Program-made: the position numbers and the translations under genes
Shown: positions 11,114-60,562 of the stretch, one piece after another
Position numbering within the stretch: position 1 is the first letter of the stretch
How the letters are laid out: every line of letters starts with the position of its first letter
Source of the DNA: Rubellimicrobium arenae
Lineage (GTDB): Bacteria; Pseudomonadota; Alphaproteobacteria; Rhodobacterales; Rhodobacteraceae
Assembly: GCF_017916275.1 (NCBI RefSeq)
Contig: NZ_JAFMST010000005.1
Coordinates: forward strand, 186,001 to 250,000
Length of the DNA: 64,000 bases
Direction of reading: 5' to 3'
The notes under the pieces: model-generated
Seen by the model: only the letters and a program-made list of their open reading frames with translations
The model's database searches: none
Told to the model about the DNA's origin: nothing

Positions 11114-12112
11114 ATGATCCGACTGAGCCGCCGGACCCTGTTCGCAGGCGTTGCCGCCTTTGCCGCCCGCCCCGCCCTGGCCCAGCAGCCTACCTGGGAC
11201 GACGTGGCCGAAGCGGCCCGGTCGCTGCCGCAGCTTCACGCCATCATCATCGCCCAGGACGGGCAGCCGGTCCTGGCCGAGGCGATCCGAGGCTCTGGGC
11301 TCGACACTCCGACCAACGTCAAATCGGTGTCGAAGTCCATCGTCGCGCTGCTTCTTGGGGCGGCCATCGACCGCGGGGTGGTTCCGTCGGTCACGTCCAC
11401 CTTGGGCGAGGTCGCGCCCCGGCTGATCCCGGACGGAGCCGATTCCCGGGTCGCGGGGCTGACGATGGAGGATCTCGTGACGCTGCGGGCCGGGCTCGAG
11501 CGGACCTCGGGGCCGAGCTACGGGGAATGGGTGTCGTCCTCCAATTGGGTGGCCAATGCGCTCTCGCGTCCTTTCGTCGCAGAGCCGGGGGGGCGGATGC
11601 TTTACTCGACCGGCACCTTCCACGTGCTGGGCGCGGCGCTGGCCGAAGCCTCTGGCGAGTCGCTCCTCACCCTTGCGCGCGAATGGCTGGGCAACCCGCT
11701 CGATATCGAGATCGCGCCATGGACGCGGGACCCGCAGGGCTACTACCTGGGCGGAAACGAGATGGCTCTGAGTCCCCGGGCGATGCTGCGGGTGGGCGAG
11801 TTGCTGCGCCAGGGCGGCACCTGGGACGGACGGCAGGTGCTCTCCCGCGATTGGGTGGAGGCAAGCCTCACCCCGGCCACGCGGTCGCCCTTCTCGGGGC
11901 TGGCCTATGGCTATGGGTGGTTCCTGGGTGACACGCCGGCCGGACGGCTTGCCATCGCGCGCGGCTATGGCGGGCAGATCATCGCGGCGGCCCCGGATCC
12001 GGGGCTGACCATCGTCATCACCTCCGATCCGACGCTTCCGGCGCGGAGCGAAGGCTATTTCGGCGACCTCATGGCCCTGATCGAGGAGCGGATCCTGCCC
12101 CTCGCTGCGTGA
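11114..12112 (+). CDS. Exported serine hydrolase, beta-lactamase class C/PBP4* family
   Basis: The 332-residue protein starts with a twin-arginine-like signal (SRRTLFAGVAAFAARPALA), indicating export. The mature part is a PF00144 serine hydrolase. The active-site tetrad SVSK (nucleophile Ser and Lys) lies in NVKSVSKSIVALLLG, the YST triad lies in MLYSTGTFHVLG (in place of the usual YxN), and a C-terminal GYGGQI stands where family members have HxG/KTG. Relatives include 6-aminohexanoate-dimer hydrolases, esterases and D-amino peptidases. A true AmpC-type resistance enzyme is unlikely because the YxN motif is altered. GGAG precedes the ATG at 11114; in-frame codons upstream would disrupt the signal. 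It may be monocistronic. The substrate is unknown. Confidence 0.85.
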   Translation: MIRLSRRTLFAGVAAFAARPALAQQPTWDDVAEAARSLPQLHAIIIAQDGQPVLAEAIRGSGLDTPTNVKSVSKSIVALLLGAAIDRGVVPSVTSTLGEVAPRLIPDGADSRVAGLTMEDLVTLRAGLERTSGPSYGEWVSSSNWVANALSRPFVAEPGGRMLYSTGTFHVLGAALAEASGESLLTLAREWLGNPLDIEIAPWTRDPQGYYLGGNEMALSPRAMLRVGELLRQGGTWDGRQVLSRDWVEASLTPATRSPFSGLAYGYGWFLGDTPAGRLAIARGYGGQIIAAAPDPGLTIVITSDPTLPARSEGYFGDLMALIEERILPLAA

Positions 12113-12207
12113 TCCCGTCGATCTCCGCCCGACCCATCCGGCGAGGACCGGATCAACGCAGGGGTCGACCGGGGAACATTCGACGGCCTCTCCGGTTCGA
12201 AGGGATC

Positions 12208-13050
12208 ATGGCAGATGACATTGATGAACTGGCGCGCTCGATCCACGATCGCCGTGCCATCCTGTTCGTGGGCGCGGGCGTCTCCATGGTGGTGGGGCTG
12301 CCGTCCTGGCAGGAGTTGATCGACCACATGGTCGAGGATCTGGGGCTGGAGGAGGAGGCCATGGCCGGCGTCAGCCTCGACCACCCGATCCTCGCCGAAT
12401 ATTACCGGATCCGGCATGGCAGCATCGGCCCGTTGCGAAGCTGGATGGACCGCGAATGGAAGGTTTCGGAAGAGCGGGTCCGGGACTCGCGGGTGCACCA
12501 GCTCATCGTCGAACTCGATTTTCCGCTCATCTATACGACCAATTACGACCGCAACCTCGAGCTCGCCTTCGAGACCCAGGGAAAGGCCTTCGCCAAGATC
12601 GCGAATGAGCGCGACCTGACCTTCGCGGGGTCGCACCGCACGCAGATCATCAAGTTCCATGGCGACTTCGACGACGATGCCAGCCTTGTCATCACCGAGT
12701 CCGACTACTTTTCCCGGCTCAACTTCGACAGCCCCCTGGACGTGAAGTTCCGGGCCGATGCCATGAGCCGGACCCTGCTCTTCATCGGGTACTCCATGCA
12801 GGACCTCAACATCCGGCTGCTGCTTCACCGCATTTGGGAAAGCTGGAGCAGGTCCCCCTACGAGCAGAACCGGCCACGAAGCTGGGTCTTCCTGCCCCGG
12901 GCCGGTCCAGCTCAGGAGGCCGTGCTGAACCGTTGGGGGATCTCGGTCGTGACATCCAGGGACAAGGACCCGACCAGCGCCTTGACCTCGTTCCTGGAGC
13001 GGCTGGCGGAGCGCGTCCGGGAGTTGGGTGCGCCGGAGCCGGAGGATTGA
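12208..13050 (+). CDS. Stand-alone SIR2-like domain protein, putative NADase
   Basis: The 280-residue protein is a SIR2_2-type domain filling nearly the whole chain. Nucleotide-binding hallmarks are visible: ILFVGAGVSMVVGLPSWQEL near residue 20, LIYTTNYDRNLELAFE with the Asn/Asp pair, and IIKFHGDFDD with the candidate catalytic His. LLFIGYSMQDLNIRLLL forms the late Rossmann strand. The zinc-binding cysteines of true sirtuin deacetylases are absent. Such domains in bacterial defence proteins (ThsA, DSR2, SIR2-HerA) cleave NAD+ on infection. Here there is no recognisable sensor or partner gene, so immunity is only a possibility. AAGGGA precedes the ATG at 12208; a frame 33 codons longer overlaps the preceding gene and lacks homology. 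It converges on pbpC. Confidence 0.82.
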   Translation: MADDIDELARSIHDRRAILFVGAGVSMVVGLPSWQELIDHMVEDLGLEEEAMAGVSLDHPILAEYYRIRHGSIGPLRSWMDREWKVSEERVRDSRVHQLIVELDFPLIYTTNYDRNLELAFETQGKAFAKIANERDLTFAGSHRTQIIKFHGDFDDDASLVITESDYFSRLNFDSPLDVKFRADAMSRTLLFIGYSMQDLNIRLLLHRIWESWSRSPYEQNRPRSWVFLPRAGPAQEAVLNRWGISVVTSRDKDPTSALTSFLERLAERVRELGAPEPED

Positions 13051-49310: not shown

Positions 49311-50108
49311 TCAGACCTTGTCCAACCGAGCCTGGAAGGCGCTCAGTTCGTCCTCCTTCATGCGCACGAGGTGCTTGTCCTCCGGATAGGCGCCCGTCTC
49401 GACATCCGCGATGAACTCCCGGAAGGCGGACACCCGTTCGCGCTGGAGACGGTCGAACTCCGCCGAGAAGTCCCGGTAGACCTTGGAGTGCCGAGGCATA
49501 TGCCCGCAGTTCGTCCGCAGGATATCCTCCGCGAACAGGTACTGCGCATTGCAGCCCGGCCCCGAGCCCATGGACCAGAGCAGGATCTCCACGCGTCGGC
49601 TGATCTCGGTCGCCACCTCGACGGGGACGACCTCGATCTCGACCGCAAAGGCACCCGCGTCCTGGTAGGCCCTCACCTCGTCGTACATCCGCAGCGCCTC
49701 GTCGGCGGTCTTGCCCACGGCCTTGAAGCCGCCGGTCCAGGTCGCGCGGGACGGGACCAGGCCGACATGGCCCACCACCGGGATGTGCTCGCGCGCGAGG
49801 AAGGCCACGGTGTCGAGGCTGCCGGAACAGTAGATGGCGTCGGCTCCTGCCTGCATCATCTGCCCGGACCAGCGGAGGTAATCCTCCTTCGTGCCGGCCT
49901 CCAGATGCGTCTTGCCGGTCATGGAAAAGATGGATGGGGCCACATCTCGGTACCGTGGATCGGTGAGCAGCTCGGGCGGGACCGAGGCCACGTCGATGCC
50001 CGCCTCCTCGGCGGCCTGGGCTTCGTCGAGGCTGAAGTAGCGCAGCATGGTCAGCTGCCGTTGTCCCTTCAGCGCACGCAGGTCGGCTACGGTCGGCTTC
50101 TTTCGCAT
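49311..50108 (-). CDS. Divergent PanB-like (ketopantoate hydroxymethyltransferase family) protein
   Basis: The 265-residue protein is clearly PanB-like in its C-terminal two thirds: PVVGHVGLVPSRATWTGGFK, DAGAFAVEIEVVPVEVATEI (with the catalytic-type Glu) and SMGSGPGCNAQYLFAEDILR. PanB makes ketopantoate for coenzyme A. The N-terminal third has drifted: where PanB has the metal-binding GDS motif there is VPPELLTDP, and the other metal-binding acidic motifs are not found. It is therefore probably not a housekeeping PanB. Its place at the end of the sugar ABC operon suggests an aldol-type step on a sugar-derived keto acid. GAGG precedes the ATG; it lies 122 bp after the epimerase-like gene. Confidence 0.78.
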   Translation of the reverse strand: MRKKPTVADLRALKGQRQLTMLRYFSLDEAQAAEEAGIDVASVPPELLTDPRYRDVAPSIFSMTGKTHLEAGTKEDYLRWSGQMMQAGADAIYCSGSLDTVAFLAREHIPVVGHVGLVPSRATWTGGFKAVGKTADEALRMYDEVRAYQDAGAFAVEIEVVPVEVATEISRRVEILLWSMGSGPGCNAQYLFAEDILRTNCGHMPRHSKVYRDFSAEFDRLQRERVSAFREFIADVETGAYPEDKHLVRMKEDELSAFQARLDKV

Positions 50109-50230: not shown

Positions 50231-51427
50231 TCATGACGCTCCGCCATCCTGCGCGCCCCTGAGCGGCCCGAAGCGGCCCGACGGCTCGGGGAAGTCCTCC
50301 TGCGGCTGCATGGCGATGGCCGAGATCCGCGCCTCGGCGTCGGAGAGCGCCGCAGCCCCATCGAGCACGCGGACCCGCAACTCGTAGGAGCGTTCCTCCA
50401 AGGGACCGAGCCAGATCATCTCGCCCCGGTCGCGCGCGGCGTTGTCGCCCAGGACGTGATGGGTCGAGGGTTCGATCCCCAAAGCATAGCTGCCGGCCTG
50501 GAAGTTTTGCCACTCGTAGGCGCAGGGAAGCTGGTCCTTGCGGGTGGCCACCTCGACCCCGAGGCCCAGCCGGTCGTTGACCAGGGCGACCGGCACCCGG
50601 CCATCGCCGTCGGCGGCCATCTCGTGCTGCCAGACCTGCTCGACGAAGTCGAGCGCCGGGGCCGGCGCGCGGCGGTAGCCCACGCCCTGGGCCTGGTAGC
50701 GGGGGCCGGAATGGGCGGCCCAGATCACCTCGCGGATCGGCGCAAGGTAGCGCGCGCCGTCCTCCAGCAGCGGATGGCCCAGGTTGACGTGGTAGAAGAA
50801 CATGTGCGGCGTCCGCAGGAAGCCCTGGTTCACCACGCGGTCCTGCACGCGGATCTCGTCGCCGCCCAGGTCGGCCTCGATCCGGCGATGAAGATGGAGG
50901 TTCTCGCCGAACACGGCGGACTGGGCTACGATGCCTTCGACCCACAGGACGCAGCGATCCCCTTCCCATCGCTCGCCGTAGCCGGTCAGGCGGGCGGGGA
51001 TCGACGTGATGCGGCCATGAAGGACGTGCTTCACCGTTTTCTTCCCGGGATAGTTGTAATTGTCGGCCGGAACCTCGTCGGGCCCGAGGATGTGGTCCAG
51101 GCCGCAGGTCACCAGGAACCCTGTGAACGACCGGGCGAAGGCCAAGCCCTGCTCGCCTTCCACCTCGTGCAACCCGGGGTGGCGGAGGCCGGTCGGGGAA
51201 TGCCAGCCGATCGACCGGCCCTTGTGCTCGACCTCCACGATGTCCATGGCCCGGTCGACCGCGACCGTGAACCGCAGGCCCGAGCCGGTGCGGAACTCGA
51301 GCAGACGCACGCCACGCTCGGGGCCATCGCCCAGGGTGACCAGGCGCACGCCTCCGAAGGCCGACAGCGACCCGGCATGGGCCGCCACGTCGCGGCGGGA
51401 AAGGGTGCGTCCGAAAAGCTCAGGCAT
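50231..51427 (-). CDS. DUF4432-type aldose 1-epimerase-like protein
   Basis: The 398-residue protein resembles the DUF4432/galactose-mutarotase-like beta-sandwich group: FRTGSGLRFTVAVDRAMDIV, GRSIGWHSPTGLRHP, ARSFTGFLVTCGLDHILGPD with GLDHI-type residues, and a late GLGVEVATRKDQLPCAYEW segment. Such proteins often sit in carbohydrate operons and are thought to interconvert anomers or act on modified sugars. The ATG at 51427 (MPELFGRT) is chosen; the 30 codons upstream lack homology and a ribosome site. It is the middle of the catabolic gene set behind the ABC genes. The exact substrate is unknown. Confidence 0.8.
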   Translation of the reverse strand: MPELFGRTLSRRDVAAHAGSLSAFGGVRLVTLGDGPERGVRLLEFRTGSGLRFTVAVDRAMDIVEVEHKGRSIGWHSPTGLRHPGLHEVEGEQGLAFARSFTGFLVTCGLDHILGPDEVPADNYNYPGKKTVKHVLHGRITSIPARLTGYGERWEGDRCVLWVEGIVAQSAVFGENLHLHRRIEADLGGDEIRVQDRVVNQGFLRTPHMFFYHVNLGHPLLEDGARYLAPIREVIWAAHSGPRYQAQGVGYRRAPAPALDFVEQVWQHEMAADGDGRVPVALVNDRLGLGVEVATRKDQLPCAYEWQNFQAGSYALGIEPSTHHVLGDNAARDRGEMIWLGPLEERSYELRVRVLDGAAALSDAEARISAIAMQPQEDFPEPSGRFGPLRGAQDGGAS

Positions 51428-51485: not shown

Positions 51486-52397
51486 TCAGAGGCCGTTGGC
51501 CCGCATCTTGTCTTCAAGGAACTTCTTGGAACGGGGCACGTCGGCCTCGTCCAGATGCTCGATGATGATCGGGATGTTCGGGTGCTTCTCGCTCAGCCGC
51601 CTCAGGTACAGGTCGTAGTTGAGGACGCCCATCCCTGGCGCATCGAGGGCGATGGCCCCCACGCCCCGGAACGTGTGCGAGGCCAGGGCGTCGTCGTCGC
51701 CGATGTCGGCGTGCTTTTCGCTGCTGTCCTGGGCGCGGGCCACGTCCTTGGCATGGGCGATTTTGATCTTGTCGGCCAGCGTGTCGAAGACCTGGTTCAG
51801 CACCTTGTCCATGTGGTCGATGTTGTGGTCCTCGAAGTAGTTCGTGGGATCCATCAACAGGCCCAGGCCGGGATGATCGACCTGGGCGAACATGCGGACC
51901 GTTTCCTCGACCGAGCCCACGACGTTGTTCACGTAGGTTTCCAGCAGGAACATCGACCCGTGGTCATAGGCCTCCTGCGCGAGCTCGGCGATCACCTTGC
52001 GGCAGGTCTCGAACCCTTCCTCGGTCCGGTTCTTGGGATCCGACATCCACTCGGATTCGGTGTTGAAGGTGCCGGTCTCGGAGATGACGTAGGGCGTGCC
52101 GAACAGCCGGGCGTTGCGGATGATCTCCTTCAGGCGCTCGACGTTCTGCTTCCGATGATCCTCGTCCGGGTGGATGATGTTGGTGTAGCCCGAGATGCAG
52201 CTGATCGGCAGGTCGTTGTCGCGGAAGGTGTCGCGCACGCGCTTGGCCTTGTCCGCGGTGATCTGGCCGTGGCTCAGGTCGATGTCCTTGAAGTGCAGGT
52301 CGAGCTGGACGGTGTTGAACCCGTGGCTCCGGATGCGCTTCGCGGTCTCCTCCAGGCCATACGGGAAATAGCCCGTGAAGATCCCCGTTTGCATCAT
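51486..52397 (-). CDS. Sugar phosphate isomerase/epimerase-type TIM-barrel protein
   Basis: The 303-residue protein matches the AP endonuclease family 2/xylose isomerase-like TIM barrel (PF01261): GIFTGYFPYGLEETAKRIRS, FNTVQLDLHFKDIDL, ISCISGYTNIIHPDEDHRK, FLLETYVNNVVGSVEETVRM, GLLMDPTNYFE with the metal-type Asp/Glu, and KIAHAKDVA. These enzymes isomerise or epimerise keto-sugars or dehydrate inosose-like rings. It is often paired, as here, with a Gfo/Idh/MocA dehydrogenase next door. GGGGAGG precedes the double ATG. The precise sugar cannot be named. Confidence 0.85.
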   Translation of the reverse strand: MMQTGIFTGYFPYGLEETAKRIRSHGFNTVQLDLHFKDIDLSHGQITADKAKRVRDTFRDNDLPISCISGYTNIIHPDEDHRKQNVERLKEIIRNARLFGTPYVISETGTFNTESEWMSDPKNRTEEGFETCRKVIAELAQEAYDHGSMFLLETYVNNVVGSVEETVRMFAQVDHPGLGLLMDPTNYFEDHNIDHMDKVLNQVFDTLADKIKIAHAKDVARAQDSSEKHADIGDDDALASHTFRGVGAIALDAPGMGVLNYDLYLRRLSEKHPNIPIIIEHLDEADVPRSKKFLEDKMRANGL

Positions 52398-52422: not shown

Positions 52423-53526
52423 TTATCGGATGTCGATTTCATCGAGCCGCACCGTCCGCCGCTCGGCGATCGAACGGTAGCCGGCCTCGATCAGGGCCAC
52501 GGTCTTCACGTTGTCCGCAACCGAGAGGGCAGGCGGCGTGCCCGTGGCGACGGCGTGCTGGAGCTGCTCCATGACGCCCACGAAGGCGTGGGGGAACCAC
52601 ATGGTCCCCCAGCTGGGCGTGATCCACTCGCCATCGGTCGTCCGCTTCGACGCATAGGACAGCGTCGAGGCGGCGCCCGTCGGCCAGCCGATGGTGCCCT
52701 TGGCGACGCCGTCCGTCCCTTCGACGCGCCAGCCGATGTGCTGGTCGTCCGTGTAGCCCCCCTCGCGCGGGCCGGACCACACGTCCTCGAGGCTCAGCGC
52801 AAGGACTCCGGACGGGAAGCGGAGCGTCGAGACGGTGATGCCGTCCGAGTGCTCGAAGGTCGTCCGCGGGTCCTTGCGGGTGATGGTGGTGATCTCGTCC
52901 GGGTCGCCGAACAGGAAGCGGAGCACGTCGAGGTGGTGCACGCTCATGTTGGCCAGCGTGAGCCGGTCGTAGTCCTCGAGGAAGGCCTGCCAGTGCGGGA
53001 TCGCGTGCATGTCGATCTGGGCGAAGACGATCTCGCCCAGGTCCCCGCGGTCGAGGATCTGCTTGAGGACGCGCATCGACTGGTCGTAGCGCATGTTCTG
53101 GTTGACGCTCAGGATCTTGCCGGCGGCCGCGGCCTCGTCCCGCAGGCTGATGGCGTCCGCGAGCGTGAGGGCGAGTGGCTTCTGCGCCAGGATCCCCTTG
53201 ATATGCGGCTGCCGGAGGGCATGGCGGATCAGGGCAGGCTGCTGGTCCGGCGGATAGGCGATGTCAAGGATCTCGATGGACGGATCCTCGATCAGGGTTT
53301 CGGGCGTGGGGTGGACCGTCGGGATCCCGTACCGGTCCGCGACCCCCTGGGCGCGGGCCTGTGTGCGCGACGCGATGGCCGCGACCGGGAACCCGGCCTC
53401 CTTGTAGGCGGCCAGGTGGCATTCCGCCATGATCATGCCGGCGCCGATGCAACCGATGCGAAGGCTGCTGGTCCGGACCTCGGGGTCCGGAGCGAAGCCC
53501 TGTGCGCTTGTGCTCATGTCGTTCAT
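52423..53526 (-). CDS. Gfo/Idh/MocA-family NAD(P)-dependent dehydrogenase
   Basis: The 367-residue protein has the N-terminal Rossmann fold (RIGCIGAGMIMAECHLAAY) and the family motif IKGILAQKPLALTLADA containing the EKP-like lysine, here QKP. The C-terminal alpha/beta domain includes LANMSVHHLDVLRFLFGDP with the catalytic-type His. Members oxidise or reduce sugars, inositols and their derivatives using NAD(P). Glu is replaced by Gln in the usual EKP triad. Its ATG overlaps the upstream ATPase stop by 4 bp. It precedes the TIM-barrel gene by 25 bp, so the two probably act in sequence. Confidence 0.88.
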   Translation of the reverse strand: MNDMSTSAQGFAPDPEVRTSSLRIGCIGAGMIMAECHLAAYKEAGFPVAAIASRTQARAQGVADRYGIPTVHPTPETLIEDPSIEILDIAYPPDQQPALIRHALRQPHIKGILAQKPLALTLADAISLRDEAAAAGKILSVNQNMRYDQSMRVLKQILDRGDLGEIVFAQIDMHAIPHWQAFLEDYDRLTLANMSVHHLDVLRFLFGDPDEITTITRKDPRTTFEHSDGITVSTLRFPSGVLALSLEDVWSGPREGGYTDDQHIGWRVEGTDGVAKGTIGWPTGAASTLSYASKRTTDGEWITPSWGTMWFPHAFVGVMEQLQHAVATGTPPALSVADNVKTVALIEAGYRSIAERRTVRLDEIDIR

Positions 53527-54596
53527 GCCGATCCTCCCGGGGCCAGGCGGAGCGCTTCGCCACTCTCGCCGAAGAAATGCGCGCGGCCCGGGTCGACCCG
53601 GAGCGCCACGCGTGAATCGATGCGGATATCCGGCTGCCCGCGCAGGAGCGCGCGAAGCGGCACGGCTCCGGCGTCCAGGGTGACGACCGTATAGCCTCCC
53701 AGCGGCTCCACGTCGGCGACGCGGCTGGGCGTGCCGTCGCCCTGCCAGGGCAGAACCCGCAGGTTCTCGGGCCGCACGCCGATCTGGGCGGCGCCGGAGG
53801 GCAGGTCGAGCAGCGGCAGGCGGATGGCGCCACCTGCAGCCTCGGCCTCCTGCGGCGTGCGCGTCATGGGCAGGATGTTCATCATCGGCGCGCCCAGCAG
53901 CCGCGCGACATAGGCGCTGGCCGGACGGTCGTAGACCTCCGAGGGCGTGCCGATCTGCCGGATCCGCCCGTTCTCGAGGATGGCCATGCGGTCCGCGACC
54001 GACATCGCCTCCTCCTGGTCATGCGTGACATAGACCAGGGTGCGCCCGGCCTCGCGCTGGATCCGTTTGAGCTCGACCCGGGTTTCCTCGCGCAGGCGGG
54101 CATCGAGCGCGGAGATGGGATCGTCCATGAGATAGGCGACCGGGTCCCGCACCAGCGCCCTCGCGATCGCAACGCGCTGCCGTTCGCCGCCCGACAGCTG
54201 CGCGGGCGGCTTGTGGAGGATGTGGCCGATGTGCAGCTTGGCCGCCACGTCGCGCAGCCGCGCGGCGATGACCTCGGGCCGTTCCCGCCGTTCCACGAGA
54301 GGGAAGCGGACGTTCTCCTCGGCCGTCATGTGGGGGAACAGGGCGAGGTTCTGGAACACCATGGCGACGTTCCGCTGCGCGGGCGGCACATGCGTGACAG
54401 GGCGGCCGTCGATCAGGATCTCTCCGGCGTCCGGCGTCTCCAGACCCAGGATGAGACGCAGGATCGTCGTCTTCCCGGCCAGCGGCGGGCCGAAGAAGCA
54501 GAAGAACTCGTTGTCCCGGATCGTGAAGGTGAGGTCGTCGGCGGCCAGGGTCGCGCCATAGCGCTTGGTCACGTTGCGGAAGGCGATCTCGGACAT
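53523..54596 (-). CDS. Sugar ABC transporter ATPase B, altered Walker A and Walker B
   Basis: The 357-residue MalK/UgpC-like ATPase has a typical ABC signature (LSGGERQRV), Q-loop (MVFQNLALFPHM) and H-loop (VYVTHDQEEAM), followed by a TOBE-like C-terminal domain (about residues 240-350). Two sites are off consensus: Walker A is GPPLAGKTT instead of GPSGxGKST, and Walker B ends LMDDP, with Asp where the catalytic Glu normally stands. Its partner ATPase A, encoded just upstream, has the opposite pattern, so the pair is expected to form a heterodimer with one weak site. Its ATG overlaps the ATPase A stop by one base. Confidence 0.9.
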   Translation of the reverse strand: MSEIAFRNVTKRYGATLAADDLTFTIRDNEFFCFFGPPLAGKTTILRLILGLETPDAGEILIDGRPVTHVPPAQRNVAMVFQNLALFPHMTAEENVRFPLVERRERPEVIAARLRDVAAKLHIGHILHKPPAQLSGGERQRVAIARALVRDPVAYLMDDPISALDARLREETRVELKRIQREAGRTLVYVTHDQEEAMSVADRMAILENGRIRQIGTPSEVYDRPASAYVARLLGAPMMNILPMTRTPQEAEAAGGAIRLPLLDLPSGAAQIGVRPENLRVLPWQGDGTPSRVADVEPLGGYTVVTLDAGAVPLRALLRGQPDIRIDSRVALRVDPGRAHFFGESGEALRLAPGGSA

Positions 54597-55672
54597 CAGA
54601 GGGCCTTTCCGGTCTGGGCGTCGAACAGGCGGACCGCGTCGGCGTGCGGCAGGACGCGGACGACATCGCCGACAGCGGCCGGGACGTCGTTCTCGAAGAC
54701 GGCCTTGAACACGGCAGGGCCGTCGCCGAGGTGGACGATGCTGCGGGCGCCGATCCGTTCGACGAAGGAGACGGGGCTTGCGATCCCCTCCCGGGCCAGG
54801 GTCGTCTGCTCGGGCCGGAAGCCGTAGATCACCTCCCCGCGGGCCTGCTCCGCGGCCCGGGCCTGCGGCGCGGCCAGGGGCGGCGTGACGCCCAGGACGC
54901 CCAGGTCCACCGCCAGGCCGCGGTCCGTCCGCACCGGGCGCCCCCGGAGAAGGTTCATGCCCGGGGAGCCGATGAACGCGGCCACGAAGGTGTTGGCGGG
55001 ATCGTTGTAGACGTCGATGGGCCGCCCGACCTGCTGGAGCACGCCATGGTCCATGACCGCGATGCGGTCGGCCATGGTCATCGCCTCGAGCTGGTCATGG
55101 GTCACGTAGACCATGGTCTGGCGGAACTGCCGCTGGAGCTGCTTCAGCTCGGTCCGCATCACCGCGCGGAAGGCCGCGTCGACATTGGACAGCGGCTCAT
55201 CGAGGAGGAAGATGGCCGGCTCCATCACCGCCGACCGGCCGATGGCGACGCGCTGGAGGATGTTGACCGAAAGCCGGTCCGCCCGCCGGTCCAGAAGCGG
55301 CGTCAGTTGCAGGAACTCGGCCATGTCGAGCGTGCGCCGCTCCACCTCGGACTTGGGCCGGCCGGTCATGCGCAGGCCGTAGCTCAGGTTCTGGCGCACC
55401 GTCATGTGGGTGAAGATGGCGTAGTTCTGGAAGACGAAGCCCACGCCGCGCCGCGCCATCGGCACGCCGGCCATGTCGCGGTCGCCAAAGAGGATGCGGC
55501 CCTCGCTGGGCGTCTCCATCCCGGCGATCATGTTCATGGTGGTGGACTTGCCGCAGCCCGACGGCCCGAGGAGGGCCATGAACTCGCCGTCCTCGATGCG
55601 AAGGTCCATGGCCTTGAGGGCGGTGAAGCCGCCGAAGCGCTTCGCCAGATGCTCGAGGTGGATCGCGCTCAT
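54596..55672 (-). CDS. Sugar ABC transporter ATPase A, degenerate signature motif
   Basis: The 358-residue MalK/UgpC-like ATPase has canonical Walker A (GPSGCGKST), Q-loop (GFVFQNYAIFTHM), Walker B (FLLDEPLSNVDAAFR) and H-loop (VYVTHDQLEAM). The signature, however, reads LSVNILQRVAIGR rather than LSGGQxQRVA. A C-terminal regulatory beta domain follows, about residues 235-355. It pairs with ATPase B in the same operon. The ATG at 55672 overlaps the permease stop by 4 bp; the frame is open well upstream but lies inside the permease gene. Confidence 0.9.
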   Translation of the reverse strand: MSAIHLEHLAKRFGGFTALKAMDLRIEDGEFMALLGPSGCGKSTTMNMIAGMETPSEGRILFGDRDMAGVPMARRGVGFVFQNYAIFTHMTVRQNLSYGLRMTGRPKSEVERRTLDMAEFLQLTPLLDRRADRLSVNILQRVAIGRSAVMEPAIFLLDEPLSNVDAAFRAVMRTELKQLQRQFRQTMVYVTHDQLEAMTMADRIAVMDHGVLQQVGRPIDVYNDPANTFVAAFIGSPGMNLLRGRPVRTDRGLAVDLGVLGVTPPLAAPQARAAEQARGEVIYGFRPEQTTLAREGIASPVSFVERIGARSIVHLGDGPAVFKAVFENDVPAAVGDVVRVLPHADAVRLFDAQTGKAL

Positions 55673-56601
55673 GCCGCGGCCCTCCCCATGCGCTTCATCG
55701 CCCAGACCGCCGCCACGGAGAGGATCACGAGGATCGCCAGCGCGATGGCGGCCACGTAGCCCCAGATCAGGTCCTGGGTCGTGACTTCGTAGATGTAGAC
55801 GCTGATCGTCTCGGTCGCGACGCCGGGGCCGCCGCCGGTCATGATGTAAAGCGTATCGAAGATCTTGAAGTTCTCGATGACGCGGATCGCGAGGGCAATG
55901 ATCATGATCGTCTTCATGCGGGGGAGGGCGATGGTGCGGAACCGCTGCCAGGCCGAGGCGCCCAGGAGCGTCGCCGCCCGCATCTGGTCCTGCGGCACGC
56001 CCACGAGCCCGGCCAGCAGGATCAGGAACATCAGCGGGGTCCACTGCCAGATGTCCGCGATCATCACGGCCACCAGGGCCAGCGTCGGGTCCGATAGCCA
56101 GGCCACGGCGATGTCGCGCCCGAGAAGGGTCCCCAGGAGGCCGTTCACGGGTCCGCCCGACTGGAACAGCATGAAGAACATGTAGCCGGCCACCGCAGGC
56201 ACGACCATCATCGGCATGATCAGGATGGAATAGGCCACGCGCTTGCCCGGGAATTCATCCACGAACAGCATGGCGAGGCTCAGGCCAAGCAGGAACTCCA
56301 CGGGGACGCAGACCGCCATGACCAGCGCCGTCCGGCCCAGCGCCGCCCAGAGCCGCCCGTCCTGCGCCAGGTCCGAGTAGTTGGCGAAGCCGTTCCAGAA
56401 CTCCCAGGCCCGGGGCCAGGCCACGCCCGCCAGCGGCGACCAGTCGGTCAGCGAGATGTAGAGCTGCATGAGCAGCGGAAAGACGGCGATGAACAGCACC
56501 AGCACCTGCGCGGGCAGCGTGAGGCGGAACCCGAGCCGCGCGCCGTCCTCGGCGGGCGTCGGAGGGACAGGGGGCGCCAGGGGCGCATCGGCGAGGGTCA
56601 T
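55669..56601 (-). CDS. Sugar ABC transporter permease, MalF/UgpA type
   Basis: The 310-residue inner-membrane protein has six predicted helices (for example [20 protein letters not shown] and [20 protein letters not shown]) and the EAA-type cytoplasmic loop ([20 protein letters not shown] followed by [10 protein letters not shown]) that contacts the ATPases. The ATG at 56601 overlaps the second permease stop by 4 bp, and its own stop overlaps ATPase A by 4 bp. Upstream open frame is within the other permease. Together they form the membrane channel for the binding protein's ligand. Confidence 0.92.
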
Positions 56602-57458
56602 TGCTTGAGAGCCCCGAAGGTGAGGCCACGCACGAGGTGGCGCTGGATGAGGATGCCCAGGATGACCGGCGGCACCGCCGCGATCAGCCCGAGGGCCGCC
56701 TTGGCCCCATAGAGCTGCCCGGTCATCGAGGAGGACAGGGACGCCATGTAGACCGGGATGGTGACCCATTCGCGCGTGGTGAGCAGGAGCGCGATCAGGT
56801 AGTCCGACCAGTTCAGGATGAAGACGAAGAGCGCGGCCGAGGCGAGCGGCGCCCGCATCATCGGCAACGTGATCCGTGTGAAGACCCGCCACCGCGAGCA
56901 GCCCTCGACCATGGCCGCTTCCTCGATTTCGCGCGGCATGTCGTCGAAGAAGGTCTTCATCAGCCAGAAGGCGAAGGGCAGGGTGACGATCCCATAGATG
57001 AGCGCGAGGCCCCACCACGTGTCCATGAAGCCCAGGAACGCCCACATGATCATCACCGGGATCATGACGGCCATCGGCGGGAACAGCCTGAGCTGAAGCA
57101 GCGCCAGGGGCAGGTTCTGGCCCGATCCGTAGCGCGACAGCCCGTAGGCCGCGGCCGTGCCCGCCGTCATGGCGATCAGGGTGCCGAGGACCGAGGCAAG
57201 CAGCGACGCCACGATCGGTTGCACCGCGGTCCGGTCCAGCGCCACGATCAGGTTCGACGAGCTTTCCCCGAAGATGAAGCGGAAGTTGTCGAGAGTCGGG
57301 TCCTTGGGGATCCAGGTCAGGTTCTGGCCGGTCGCCTGCCATTCCGGGATCGGCTTGAAGGCCATGGAGGCCATCCAGAGGATGGGCACCAGCGTGATGG
57401 CGAGGGCGATCAGGATCGCCGCATAGCGGAAGGTTTCGAAGATGGGGGAACGCGTCAT
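56598..57458 (-). CDS. Sugar ABC transporter permease, MalG/UgpE type
   Basis: The 286-residue membrane protein has six helices and the EAA loop motif [20 protein letters not shown] followed by TLPMM. The N-terminal helix [20 protein letters not shown] and the FALWLMKTF-like segment [14 protein letters not shown] fit the MalG group. It partners with the MalF-type permease directly downstream, with a 4-bp overlap. It follows the binding-protein gene after a 68-bp gap, the usual spot where binding-protein messages are made more abundant. Confidence 0.92.
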
Positions 57459-57526: not shown

Positions 57527-59137
57527 TCAGTTCATCGCGTCGATGGTCGTGGGCCAGGCGGCCTTGGCCTTCTGGATGGCGTCCACGACCTTGTCCTCGC
57601 CTGTCCGCCGGACGATCCGGGTCCATTCGGATTCGACGTCCTCCATCGCCTGCTCGGGTGTCTTCTCGCCCGTCAGCGCGGCCATGAGGCTTTCATCCAG
57701 CGCGTTGTGGAAGGCGGTCGCGCCCGGATAGTTGATCGTCGGCACCGTGCGGGCCACCGTCTCGCGCAGGACCTTCACATGGTATTCGTGATAGGTCTCG
57801 TTCACGAGGGGATCGTTGAAGTCCGACAGCCGGAACGGATCGAGGTAGCCGCCCGGGTTGGCCGACATCCACGCGTAGATGCGCGCCGAACCGAGCCATT
57901 GCAGCAGGAGGTAGGCCGCCTCGGGCGCCTCGCTCTGGGCGCTCACCATCCCGGTGAGCGAATACCAGAGCACGGACCGGCTGTTGATCCCGCCCTCGAC
58001 CTGCCGGCCCGGGGGCAGCATGGAGCCGATCTTGCCGGTGACGGTGCTGCCGGCGTTGCCTGGATTGTCGAGGAACTTGGGCAGGTTGGAGAAGGCGCAG
58101 GTCATCGCCGCCCCGCCCGAGCCAAAATTGCCGTACTGCTCGGGCCAGCCCCAGGAGATAGCGTCCGGCGAATGATGCGCGAGCGAGTCGACATACTCGC
58201 GCGTCGCCTGCACGCCCTGCGCGCCGTTGATCAGCGGCGAGCCGTCATCCCCGAACAGGAACTGGTTGGGGGCCGCCATGCTCACGTAGCGCTGGTACCA
58301 GTTGGTGTAGCCCCAGCCCTGGTTCCTGAGGTCGGTCGAGCCGAAGAGCCCCTTGTCCGGCCGGTGGAAGAACGCGGCGACCTGCGCATGGTCGTCCCAG
58401 GTCAGCGGCACGCCCAGGGGGCGCCCATGCTGCTGCTCGAAGGCGGCCTGCTCGGCCGGATCCTCGAACAGATCCTTGCGGTAGACCCAGGTCTGGAAGT
58501 CGCCGTCCAGCGAGACCCCATAGGTCGAGCCGCGATACTGGTTGAGAAGGGCCACGCCTTGCGAGCCGCCAACATAGCCGTCCTCGGGGTCGTCCCACTC
58601 GGGACGGTGGGCCGCCACGAACTCGTCCAGATTGGCGATGCCGCCGGATTCCGCGAGGTCGCCCAAGCGGTTCCATTCGACCGAGTAGATGTCGTAGCCG
58701 CCGCCGCTCGTGGAGATGTCCTGCATCACCTTCGTGAACTCCTGCCCGTTCGGCAGGCCCACGATCTCGATCGGGATCCCGGTCTCCCGCTCCCACACCT
58801 CCTTGACGGACGGCGCCCCCGCCGGGAACGGCTGCGTGAGCTGGCCGATGGACCCGTCCGACAGCCCCAGGACGATGCGCGCCGGGGCCGACCCGTTGGC
58901 CTTCATGGCCTTCGCGGCTTCGATCGCGCGGCCCTCGGGCGTATCGGGGCCGTACTGGTAGCGCTCGGCTCCGGGGAACCCCGTTGGCCCGCCGATCATG
59001 CCGGGGGCGAGGGCGCCGTCCTGGGCCCAGGCGGGCCGGATGAACCGCGGGGCGATGCCGACGGCCGCTCCGTATACGCCGAACGTGAAGCCGGACTTCA
59101 ACAGCCCTCTCCGGCTGAGGCCGTTCTGTTTGGCCAT
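57527..59137 (-). CDS. Large Tat-exported ABC solute-binding protein
   Basis: The 536-residue protein starts with a twin-arginine signal (LSRRGLLKSGFTFGVYGAAV and a PAWAQ cleavage region). It shows the ABC sugar-binding protein fold: IVGLPNGQEFTKVMQDISTS, GGYDIYSVEWNRLGDLAESG, SLDGDFQTWVYRKDLFEDP and NPGGYLDPFR. At 536 residues it is longer than most (about 400-450). GGGAGGAG precedes the ATG at 59137; 27 upstream codons lack a ribosome site. It heads the ABC/catabolic operon and faces the LacI regulator. The ligand is likely a sugar or polyol, not determinable here. Confidence 0.9.
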   Translation of the reverse strand: MAKQNGLSRRGLLKSGFTFGVYGAAVGIAPRFIRPAWAQDGALAPGMIGGPTGFPGAERYQYGPDTPEGRAIEAAKAMKANGSAPARIVLGLSDGSIGQLTQPFPAGAPSVKEVWERETGIPIEIVGLPNGQEFTKVMQDISTSGGGYDIYSVEWNRLGDLAESGGIANLDEFVAAHRPEWDDPEDGYVGGSQGVALLNQYRGSTYGVSLDGDFQTWVYRKDLFEDPAEQAAFEQQHGRPLGVPLTWDDHAQVAAFFHRPDKGLFGSTDLRNQGWGYTNWYQRYVSMAAPNQFLFGDDGSPLINGAQGVQATREYVDSLAHHSPDAISWGWPEQYGNFGSGGAAMTCAFSNLPKFLDNPGNAGSTVTGKIGSMLPPGRQVEGGINSRSVLWYSLTGMVSAQSEAPEAAYLLLQWLGSARIYAWMSANPGGYLDPFRLSDFNDPLVNETYHEYHVKVLRETVARTVPTINYPGATAFHNALDESLMAALTGEKTPEQAMEDVESEWTRIVRRTGEDKVVDAIQKAKAAWPTTIDAMN

Positions 59138-59542
59138 GACTCCTCCCTGGAATCCGGGGTCTCGTTGTTGTCGCGCCCCATGAGTGATGTTTTCTGATGT
59201 GGGTGGCCGCTCTGTCAATCAATTCTTGCGGTCAGGCGTGATTGATTTGATGATGCACTGAACAAGGCAGCTGGCGGGAGGCCGAGCGTCGCGCCAACCG
59301 GCCGGCCCCATGGTCCGGGCAGTCCTGACGCCTCCCTGGATGAGGGTTCGGGATGCAACGTGGCGCCTCGAGAGCGGGAGGAGCGAAGTTTGAGCCGAGT
59401 GGCCGGCAGGGAACCTCAGAATACATCAACCGCCAAAGGGGGTGGTCATGGGCTTGACCTGCCTGCGGCATCGCCTCAGGGACGACGCGCGGGGCTGAGG
59501 GAACGGCCCGCCACGGATCTGCAAGGGAGTGGCCCGGCCGTC
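59138..59542. other. Divergent control region between binding-protein operon and LacI gene
   Basis: This 405-bp gap holds no recognisable gene. The half near the binding-protein start is the more AT-rich part and contains the inverted repeat at 59216-59246. The rest (about 59260-59540) is GC-rich and open in several frames, without a plausible protein or ribosome site. Confidence 0.5.
59216..59246. promoter_or_regulatory. Inverted repeat TCAATCA / TGATTGA, candidate LacI operator or promoter element
   Basis: TCAATCA at 59216-59222 and its exact complement TGATTGA at 59240-59246 are spaced by 17 bp, in the AT-rich part of the control region about 80 bp before the binding-protein start. The layout suits a regulator site over the operon promoter. 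The wide spacing is unusual for a LacI operator, which normally has adjoining arms, so the assignment is tentative. Confidence 0.35.
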
Positions 59543-60562
59543 ATGCGCGTGACATTGCTCGATCTGGCTCGGGAAGCGGGCGTATCCTCCGCGACAGTCG
59601 ACCGGGTGCTGAACAATCGCCAGGGGGTGCATCCGCGCACCCGGGAGATCGTGCTCTCCACGGCGCGGCGGATCGGCTATCTCGCGGAGGAGATGGAGGC
59701 GCCCGAGGCGACGGCCCGCCCCATCCGCTTGGCCTTCGTGCTGCCGGCCGGGACGAACGCCTTCATCGAAGCGCTCCGGGCGCAGATCGTGGCCCAGGCG
59801 GCCGAACGCCCGGGCGTGGAGGTCGAGGTCGAGACGATCGACGACTTCAACGCCGAGACGTTCGCCCGACGGCTCTCGGACCTGCCCGATCACTTCGACG
59901 GGGTCGGGGTCGTGGCGCTGGACCACCCCTTCGTCCGCCAGGCCATGAGGAGCCTGACCCAGCGCGGGACTCAGGTCGTGACGCTGGTGTCGGATGTGCA
60001 GGGCGTTCCGCGCGTCGCCTACGTGGGCACCGACAACCGTCAGGCCGGACGCTTGGCCGGATACGTGATGGGCCGGCTTGTCGGTCCGAAGTCGGGCGCG
60101 AAGGTCGCGTTCTTTGCCGGGTTCCGCGCCTATCGGGGGCACGAGGAGCGCGAGATGGGGTTCCGCAGCGTCCTGGCCGAGGATTTCCCCGGCCTGCGGC
60201 TCGTTGAACCGCGCGAGACGATGGACGACGGCGAACGGGCGCACGACATCGCGCTTGCGCTGCTCGATGCGCATCCCGATCTCGCGGGGATCTACAATTC
60301 CGGCGCGGGGAACGCCGGCCTTGCACGGGCGCTGCGGGAGCGCGGCGTCGCCGGGAAGGTCCTCCTGATCGGTCACGAGGCCACGGAGGAGAACAAGCGG
60401 CTTGTCCTTGAGGGTGTGATGGACGCCGTCATCGACCAGAACCCCCGTGTCGAGGCCCGGGAAGCGCTGAACGCCCTCACGTCGGCCGCCGCGGGCAAGC
60501 CCTACACGGTCGTTCCCCCGCGTCTCATGATCGTGTTCCGGGAAAACCTGCCCGACGACTGA
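59543..60562 (+). CDS. LacI-family transcriptional regulator of the sugar ABC operon
   Basis: The 339-residue protein starts with the LacI helix-turn-helix (VTLLDLAREAGVSSATVDRV then LNNRQGVHPRTRE) and hinge, followed by a periplasmic-binding-protein-like sensor domain (IRLAFVLPAGTNAFIEALRA, VAYVGTDNRQAGRLAGYVMG, LAGIYNSGAGNAGLARAL). The inducer-binding half is of the ribose-type group (Peripla_BP_4-like). ATG at 59543 puts the HTH at the very N-terminus, as in LacI proteins; upstream frame is unsupported. It is divergent from the ABC binding-protein gene, so it most likely controls that operon. Confidence 0.92.
   Translation: MRVTLLDLAREAGVSSATVDRVLNNRQGVHPRTREIVLSTARRIGYLAEEMEAPEATARPIRLAFVLPAGTNAFIEALRAQIVAQAAERPGVEVEVETIDDFNAETFARRLSDLPDHFDGVGVVALDHPFVRQAMRSLTQRGTQVVTLVSDVQGVPRVAYVGTDNRQAGRLAGYVMGRLVGPKSGAKVAFFAGFRAYRGHEEREMGFRSVLAEDFPGLRLVEPRETMDDGERAHDIALALLDAHPDLAGIYNSGAGNAGLARALRERGVAGKVLLIGHEATEENKRLVLEGVMDAVIDQNPRVEAREALNALTSAAAGKPYTVVPPRLMIVFRENLPDD

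Follow-up and report, generated by a model that had tools for sequence, protein, structure and literature searches.

Two adjacent MalK-like ATPase genes of Rubellimicrobium arenae, here called A and B, carry complementary departures from the canonical ABC motifs; all of these departures fall in one of the two composite ATP sites that the pair would form, and the other site is intact. The genes lie in a 64,000-nucleotide stretch of genomic DNA (the window, whose positions are used below). A and B very probably form one heterodimer beneath a two-permease CUT1-type importer in which, judging from the sequences, site 1 would hydrolyse ATP and site 2 would act as a weak latch. The motif oddities reported for 53523-55672 in the initial annotation are borne out, and that span is exactly the two ATPase genes, both on the minus strand. 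The operon and its surroundings comprise the following features, in some lines compared with related loci of Pararhizobium (L089) and Pseudosulfitobacter (L091).

59360 to 60562, plus strand: predicted LacI-type regulator (sequence judgement only); L089 and L091 have an annotated LacI-family gene upstream.
57527 to 59137, minus strand: extracellular solute-binding protein (SBP_bac_1) with a twin-arginine-like leader, read from the sequence.
56598 to 57458, minus strand: permease (BPD_transp_1), with an ATGA overlap with the next permease gene.
55669 to 56601, minus strand: permease (BPD_transp_1), its stop overlapping the start of A (ATGA).
54596 to 55672, minus strand: ATPase A, 358 amino acids (Pfam ABC_tran and OB_MalK); canonical Walker A, Q-loop, Walker B and H-loop, degenerate signature LSVNI.
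53523 to 54596, minus strand: ATPase B, 357 amino acids (Pfam ABC_tran and TOBE_2); canonical signature LSGGE, degenerate Walker A GPPLAGKTT and Walker B LMDDP.
52423 to 53526, minus strand: Gfo/Idh/MocA oxidoreductase, overlapping the end of B; found beside the transporter also in L089 and L091.
51486 to 52397, minus strand: xylose-isomerase-like TIM barrel, annotated in L089 and L091 as sugar phosphate isomerase/epimerase.
50231 to 51427, minus strand: DUF4432 protein; an aldose 1-epimerase family gene is annotated at the equivalent place in L089 and L091.
49311 to 50108, minus strand: match to PF02548 (ketopantoate hydroxymethyltransferase) over part of the protein, downstream of the operon.

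The operon thus runs from the binding protein through two permeases, A, B and the oxidoreductase to the TIM-barrel and DUF4432 proteins, an order also annotated, with the upstream LacI-family gene, in Pararhizobium and Pseudosulfitobacter. Overlaps of 1-4 bases join several of the genes: the permease-permease, permease-A and B-oxidoreductase junctions are ATGA and the A-B junction is TGATG, so A and B are probably produced together. Both ATPases combine ABC_tran with a C-terminal OB/TOBE regulatory domain and share one operon with two BPD_transp_1 permeases and an SBP_bac_1 binding protein. In OB_MalK/TOBE_2 ATPase domains, paired BPD permeases and SBP_bac_1 protein the system resembles the CUT1 type I importers MalFGK2, UgpC and SugC. 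Those importers have one ATPase gene and two canonical sites, whereas here two different ATPase genes take the place of the single gene for a homodimer, and one site is degenerate. The solved structures scoring best against A and B are MalK-type ATPases. In NCBIfam, both proteins score below the curated cut-offs of the UgpC model (A 360.6 and B 327 bits; cut-off 432) and of the MalK model (A 315.5 and B 270.1 bits; cut-off 568). From its family and neighbouring genes the importer is predicted to be of the carbohydrate or sugar type; its binding protein is assigned to no NCBIfam family.

Close homologues of this binding protein occur in genomes G371, G410 and G577 (loci L116, L119, L122, L123 and L125) with no ATPase gene in the fetched stretch, some of these loci having permeases only; such loci may borrow an ATPase pair. 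Antisense within the binding-protein gene of the window, positions 57793-58017 of the plus strand match Rfam Cis90_sRNA (Ruegeria cis90) at 50.6 bits against a cut-off of 50, a match that may be merely homologous coding DNA.

Read from the translations, the motifs of A are GPSGCGKST (Walker A), VFQ, LSVNILQR, LLDEP and VTHDQ, with LSVNILQRVAIGR and IFLLDEPLSNVDA lying between GPSGCGKST and VTHDQ. Those of B are GPPLAGKTT (Walker A, its Lys retained), VFQ, LSGGERQR, LMDDP and VTHDQ, with LSGGERQRVAIAR and AYLMDDPISALDA between GPPLAGKTT and VTHDQ. The D-loop belongs to the signature side of a composite site. In the accessible text of PMC7756269, one ATP site consists of Walker A and B and the A-, Q- and H-loops of one nucleotide-binding domain (NBD) together with the signature of the other, and the D-loop is placed at the centre of the NBD interface.

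Co-variation among orthologous pairs, which the initial annotation had proposed as a check, is complete: LSVN in A occurs together with GPPL[ASC]GK and DD in B in 9/9 close pairs (the window, L001, L002, L003, L133, L088, L089, L090 and L091). A pseudogene or a sequencing error in A or B is rejected on the same ground, the motif changes being kept in all nine. With three more distant pairs, L121, L124 and L084 (the last derived from a plasmid search), these form group I, in which every A protein (12/12) carries LSVN and the B proteins form a graded series. B of L121 is canonical (GPPGCGKTT, DE); B of L124 and of L084 has GPPS with DE; B of the close group has GPPL with DD. These 12 pairs, the three distant ones included, suggest an order of loss: the A signature first, then the Walker A glycine of B, then the catalytic Glu of B. 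The B protein of L084, from Jannaschia (11580-12662), appears to be frameshifted in its C-terminal part.

Window-type pairs are rare. At E <= 1e-100, B matched in the window genome and in one other among 292 genomes of the order. A binding-protein search, blind to the ATPases, gave matches in 12 of 385 genomes of the class, and the stretches read around them held complete window-type pairs at L121, L124 and the window. A DNA pattern for the GPPL-type Walker A matched in 2/190 class genomes, once in the window gene and once at L221, where the fetched stretch showed no recognised ABC gene; a guessed short junction pattern gave no match.

MalK-type importers usually have one ATPase gene, whose product forms a homodimer. 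The wider background was drawn from 144 distinct MalK-like ATPases (duplicate loci L081, L082 and L083 and identical sequences removed), scored at Walker A, Q-loop, signature, Walker B, D-loop and H-loop. As many as 104 of them stand as single genes, 102 without deviation; among the 40 in tandem pairs, 5 are without deviation and 35 deviate, a contrast that is descriptive since the loci were chosen for their similarity to the window proteins and not at random. The two deviating single genes are L095 (Q-loop) and L132, which is of the A type and has its partner missing beyond a contig end. The prevalence of single genes favours a reading in which A and B act as separate homodimers, or in which one is a redundant copy in decay, but this is very improbable. 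An A homodimer would have two LSVNI sites and a B homodimer two GPPL/DD sites, so that neither would contain any canonical site; both genes are open frames, conserved jointly with their motif changes in all nine close pairs. The A/B heterodimer is left as the best explanation.

A similarity search with B in the window genome, in which 150 of 199 candidates were scored, places 29 ATPases next after the A/B pair (E <= 4.5e-43). All 29 have canonical Walker A and Walker B motifs and a canonical signature, Q-loop and H-loop (20 scored, 9 read), and a general oddity of the ATPases of this genome is thereby rejected. The same 29 proteins are potential partners for A or B, and shared (multitask) ATPases are known (PMC7658222, accessible text); A, or B, might accordingly pair with a canonical MalK-like protein encoded elsewhere, A/B not being the working unit. 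The chance of this is slight, as it would leave unexplained both the gene overlaps and the fact that the deviations of A and B lie in complementary halves of one site. For the A/B heterodimer, comparison with other two-ATPase importers is informative, the equivalent site being altered in two further groups.

Group II comprises five complete pairs (L085, L086, L087, L120 and L128). Its A proteins (5/5) have the signature MGGS, LGGS or LSAS and the D-loop LEA or LES; its B proteins (5/5) keep Walker A and the Glu, with the Q-loop Gln replaced by E or D and the switch His by P. As a separate observation on the permeases, the EAA coupling motif is without its Glu in one of the two window proteins (55669-56601 and 56598-57458) and keeps it in the other. 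A Glu-less EAA motif is also present in those loci of groups I and II in which the search pattern, which missed several, found the motif, but Arg stands at the Glu position in the single-ATPase locus L012 too.

The third group is the glycerol importer GlpS/GlpT. A search with GlpT, in which GlpS was disregarded and the query came from one of the matched genomes, found it in 43 of 248 genomes of the phylum at E <= 1e-95; with one annotated Rhizobium locus, 44 Glp pairs are available. GlpT is uniform (44/44) in having a degenerate signature (LTAD, LSAD, LSPD, LGAD or LAAD) and canonical Walker A, DE and His. GlpS keeps LSGGQ and DE and lacks the switch His in 44/44, and the second Walker A glycine is absent in 40/44. 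A DNA pattern for the Glp-type Walker A matched 40 places in 39/249 genomes, 31 of them S/T pairs and 9 with no recognised ABC gene, against 20 places for a reversed-pattern control. The glpVSTPQ mutant of Ruegeria pomeroyi is impaired in growth on glycerol (79.6%) and in glycerol drawdown (78.8%), so Glp-type importers work (PMC10130141, accessible text; the ATPases of R. pomeroyi lie outside the sequences compared).

The Glp pair resembles A/B in having two adjacent MalK-like ATPase genes, T with a degenerate signature and S, like B, with a canonical signature and a changed Walker A (40/44); Leu in place of a Walker A Gly is found in both systems. It differs in gene order (S then T) and in losing the switch His while keeping the Glu. 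Its flanks differ as well: in the annotated Rhizobium locus a DeoR/GlpR regulator and glpD precede S and T, which are followed by two permeases, DUF2160, the binding protein and glpK, so that GlpSTPQV is flanked by glpR-like, glpD and glpK genes. Identity of A/B with the Glp glycerol system is rejected, as neither the tree nor the neighbouring genes fit. A and B lie outside the GlpS and GlpT clades, in separate starred clades of the tree; the window genome has no GlpT match at E <= 1e-95; and no glpD, glpK or glpR was found among the neighbours, those searched with Pfam being Gfo/Idh, TIM barrel, DUF4432 and PF02548.

Across the three groups, every scored deviation lies in the site that the Walker side of the B-type protein and the signature side of the A-type protein would form in 61/61 pairs (12 group I, 5 group II and 44 Glp), and the opposite composite site is intact in all 61. 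Confinement was scored at Walker A, the Q-, D- and H-loops, signature and Walker B; the 17 pairs of groups I and II were scored, and the Q- and D-loops of the 44 Glp pairs were read by eye. The complementary degeneracy in one composite site first claimed for A and B is supported by its conservation in orthologues and its graded form in distant relatives, and further by the alteration of the equivalent site in the two other groups. That the altered motifs are neutral, both sites hydrolysing ATP about equally, is hardly credible: a Walker B with Asp for Glu may still work slowly, and B retains its Walker A Lys, but single MalK-like ATPases are almost all without deviation (102/104), and the deviations are restricted to one composite site throughout the three groups. 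A functional difference between the two sites of the A/B heterodimer is the preferred reading.

Tandem pairs outside groups I, II and Glp break the one-site rule (L024, L038 and L023). L038 and L023 show no deviation; being fully canonical, they show that the presence of two ATPase genes need not entail degeneracy. L038 adjoins two permease genes and may therefore represent a starting state. In L024 (6986-9209, Chloroflexota), the Q-loop Gln is replaced by Glu in both subunits, and the second carries MSSGQ.

In a tree with the motif columns removed, a branch supported at 100/97 unites the A proteins of groups I and II and sets them apart from GlpT. Each of the three B-type groups lies on one side of a well-supported branch, the branching among the three not being resolved. 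The changes in the B proteins of groups I and II therefore probably arose after the A-type proteins had split, or on unrelated partners, and a separate origin of the Glp pair is likely. Within group I, the deep branching order is the same for A as for B, and the order among the five closest pairs differs. Four GlpS proteins, of which the tree includes two, retain the Walker A glycine. They are not the earliest branches of GlpS, so the glycine was lost repeatedly or its loss was reversed.

The degenerate exporters TM287/288, TmrAB, TAP and CFTR likewise combine one canonical with one degenerate composite site, and their changes include an altered signature, as in A, or Glu-to-Asp, as in B, the latter the typical deviation of such sites (PMC7756269). 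They have the exporter fold, whereas A/B belongs to a binding-protein-dependent importer. In the CUT2 importers RbsA and NupO (ribose or guanosine), one ATP site was judged degenerate from sequence; these differ in having both NBDs fused in one chain and a second Walker A without Lys, and are classed as type II importers (PMC11466899, accessible text). A and B are encoded by separate genes. The DppBCDF importer shows an asymmetry of a different kind, a single ATP analogue having been modelled, in DppF only (PMC12136057, accessible text). Degenerate sites thus have precedents among exporters and among fused ribose-type importers. The initial annotation had called such asymmetry little described in sugar importers: this may hold for the MalK type, searches of open papers (most subscription journals lie outside these) having shown no description of a degenerate site in MalK-type (CUT1) or Glp importers, and fails for the CUT2 importers RbsA and NupO.

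The proposed mechanism begins with what were probably two canonical ATPases. The signature of A would have been lost first, leaving the residues of B in the shared pocket free to drift. In the resulting heterodimer, site 1, which is fully canonical and joins both Walker motifs, the Q-loop and the H-loop of A to the B signature, would hydrolyse ATP in each cycle. Site 2, in which the Walker motifs of B face the A signature, would be degenerate, probably binding ATP with little opening; its hydrolysis would be slow or absent, and it would serve as a structural latch. Since Asp in place of Glu can still support hydrolysis at a slow rate, site 2 may retain some activity. As in TM287/288 or TAP, the weak site may retain ATP and so act as a latch.

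Two-ATPase CUT1 importers, the widespread glycerol importer included, may well constitute a general class with one motor and one latch, arising by ratchet-like degeneration and spending one ATP per cycle; the odds for and against this are about even. Loss of LSGGQ in one subunit would free Walker A, the Q-loop, the Walker B Glu or the switch His of its partner, and different lineages would have reached an equivalent degenerate pocket by different routes. If such a class exists, import costs one hydrolysed ATP per cycle.

The maltose transporter MalFGK2 is the textbook importer with two equal ATP sites. A natural and recurrent MalK-type heterodimer with one weak site would be the importer counterpart of TAP, CFTR and TM287/288. 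With such a heterodimer it becomes directly testable how many ATP molecules, one or two, must be hydrolysed for import, and whether the weak site works as a latch or is simply tolerated. Natural intermediates are available in the graded series from L121 through L124 and L084 to the close group, and the glycerol importer supplies a degenerate-pair form with a known substrate.
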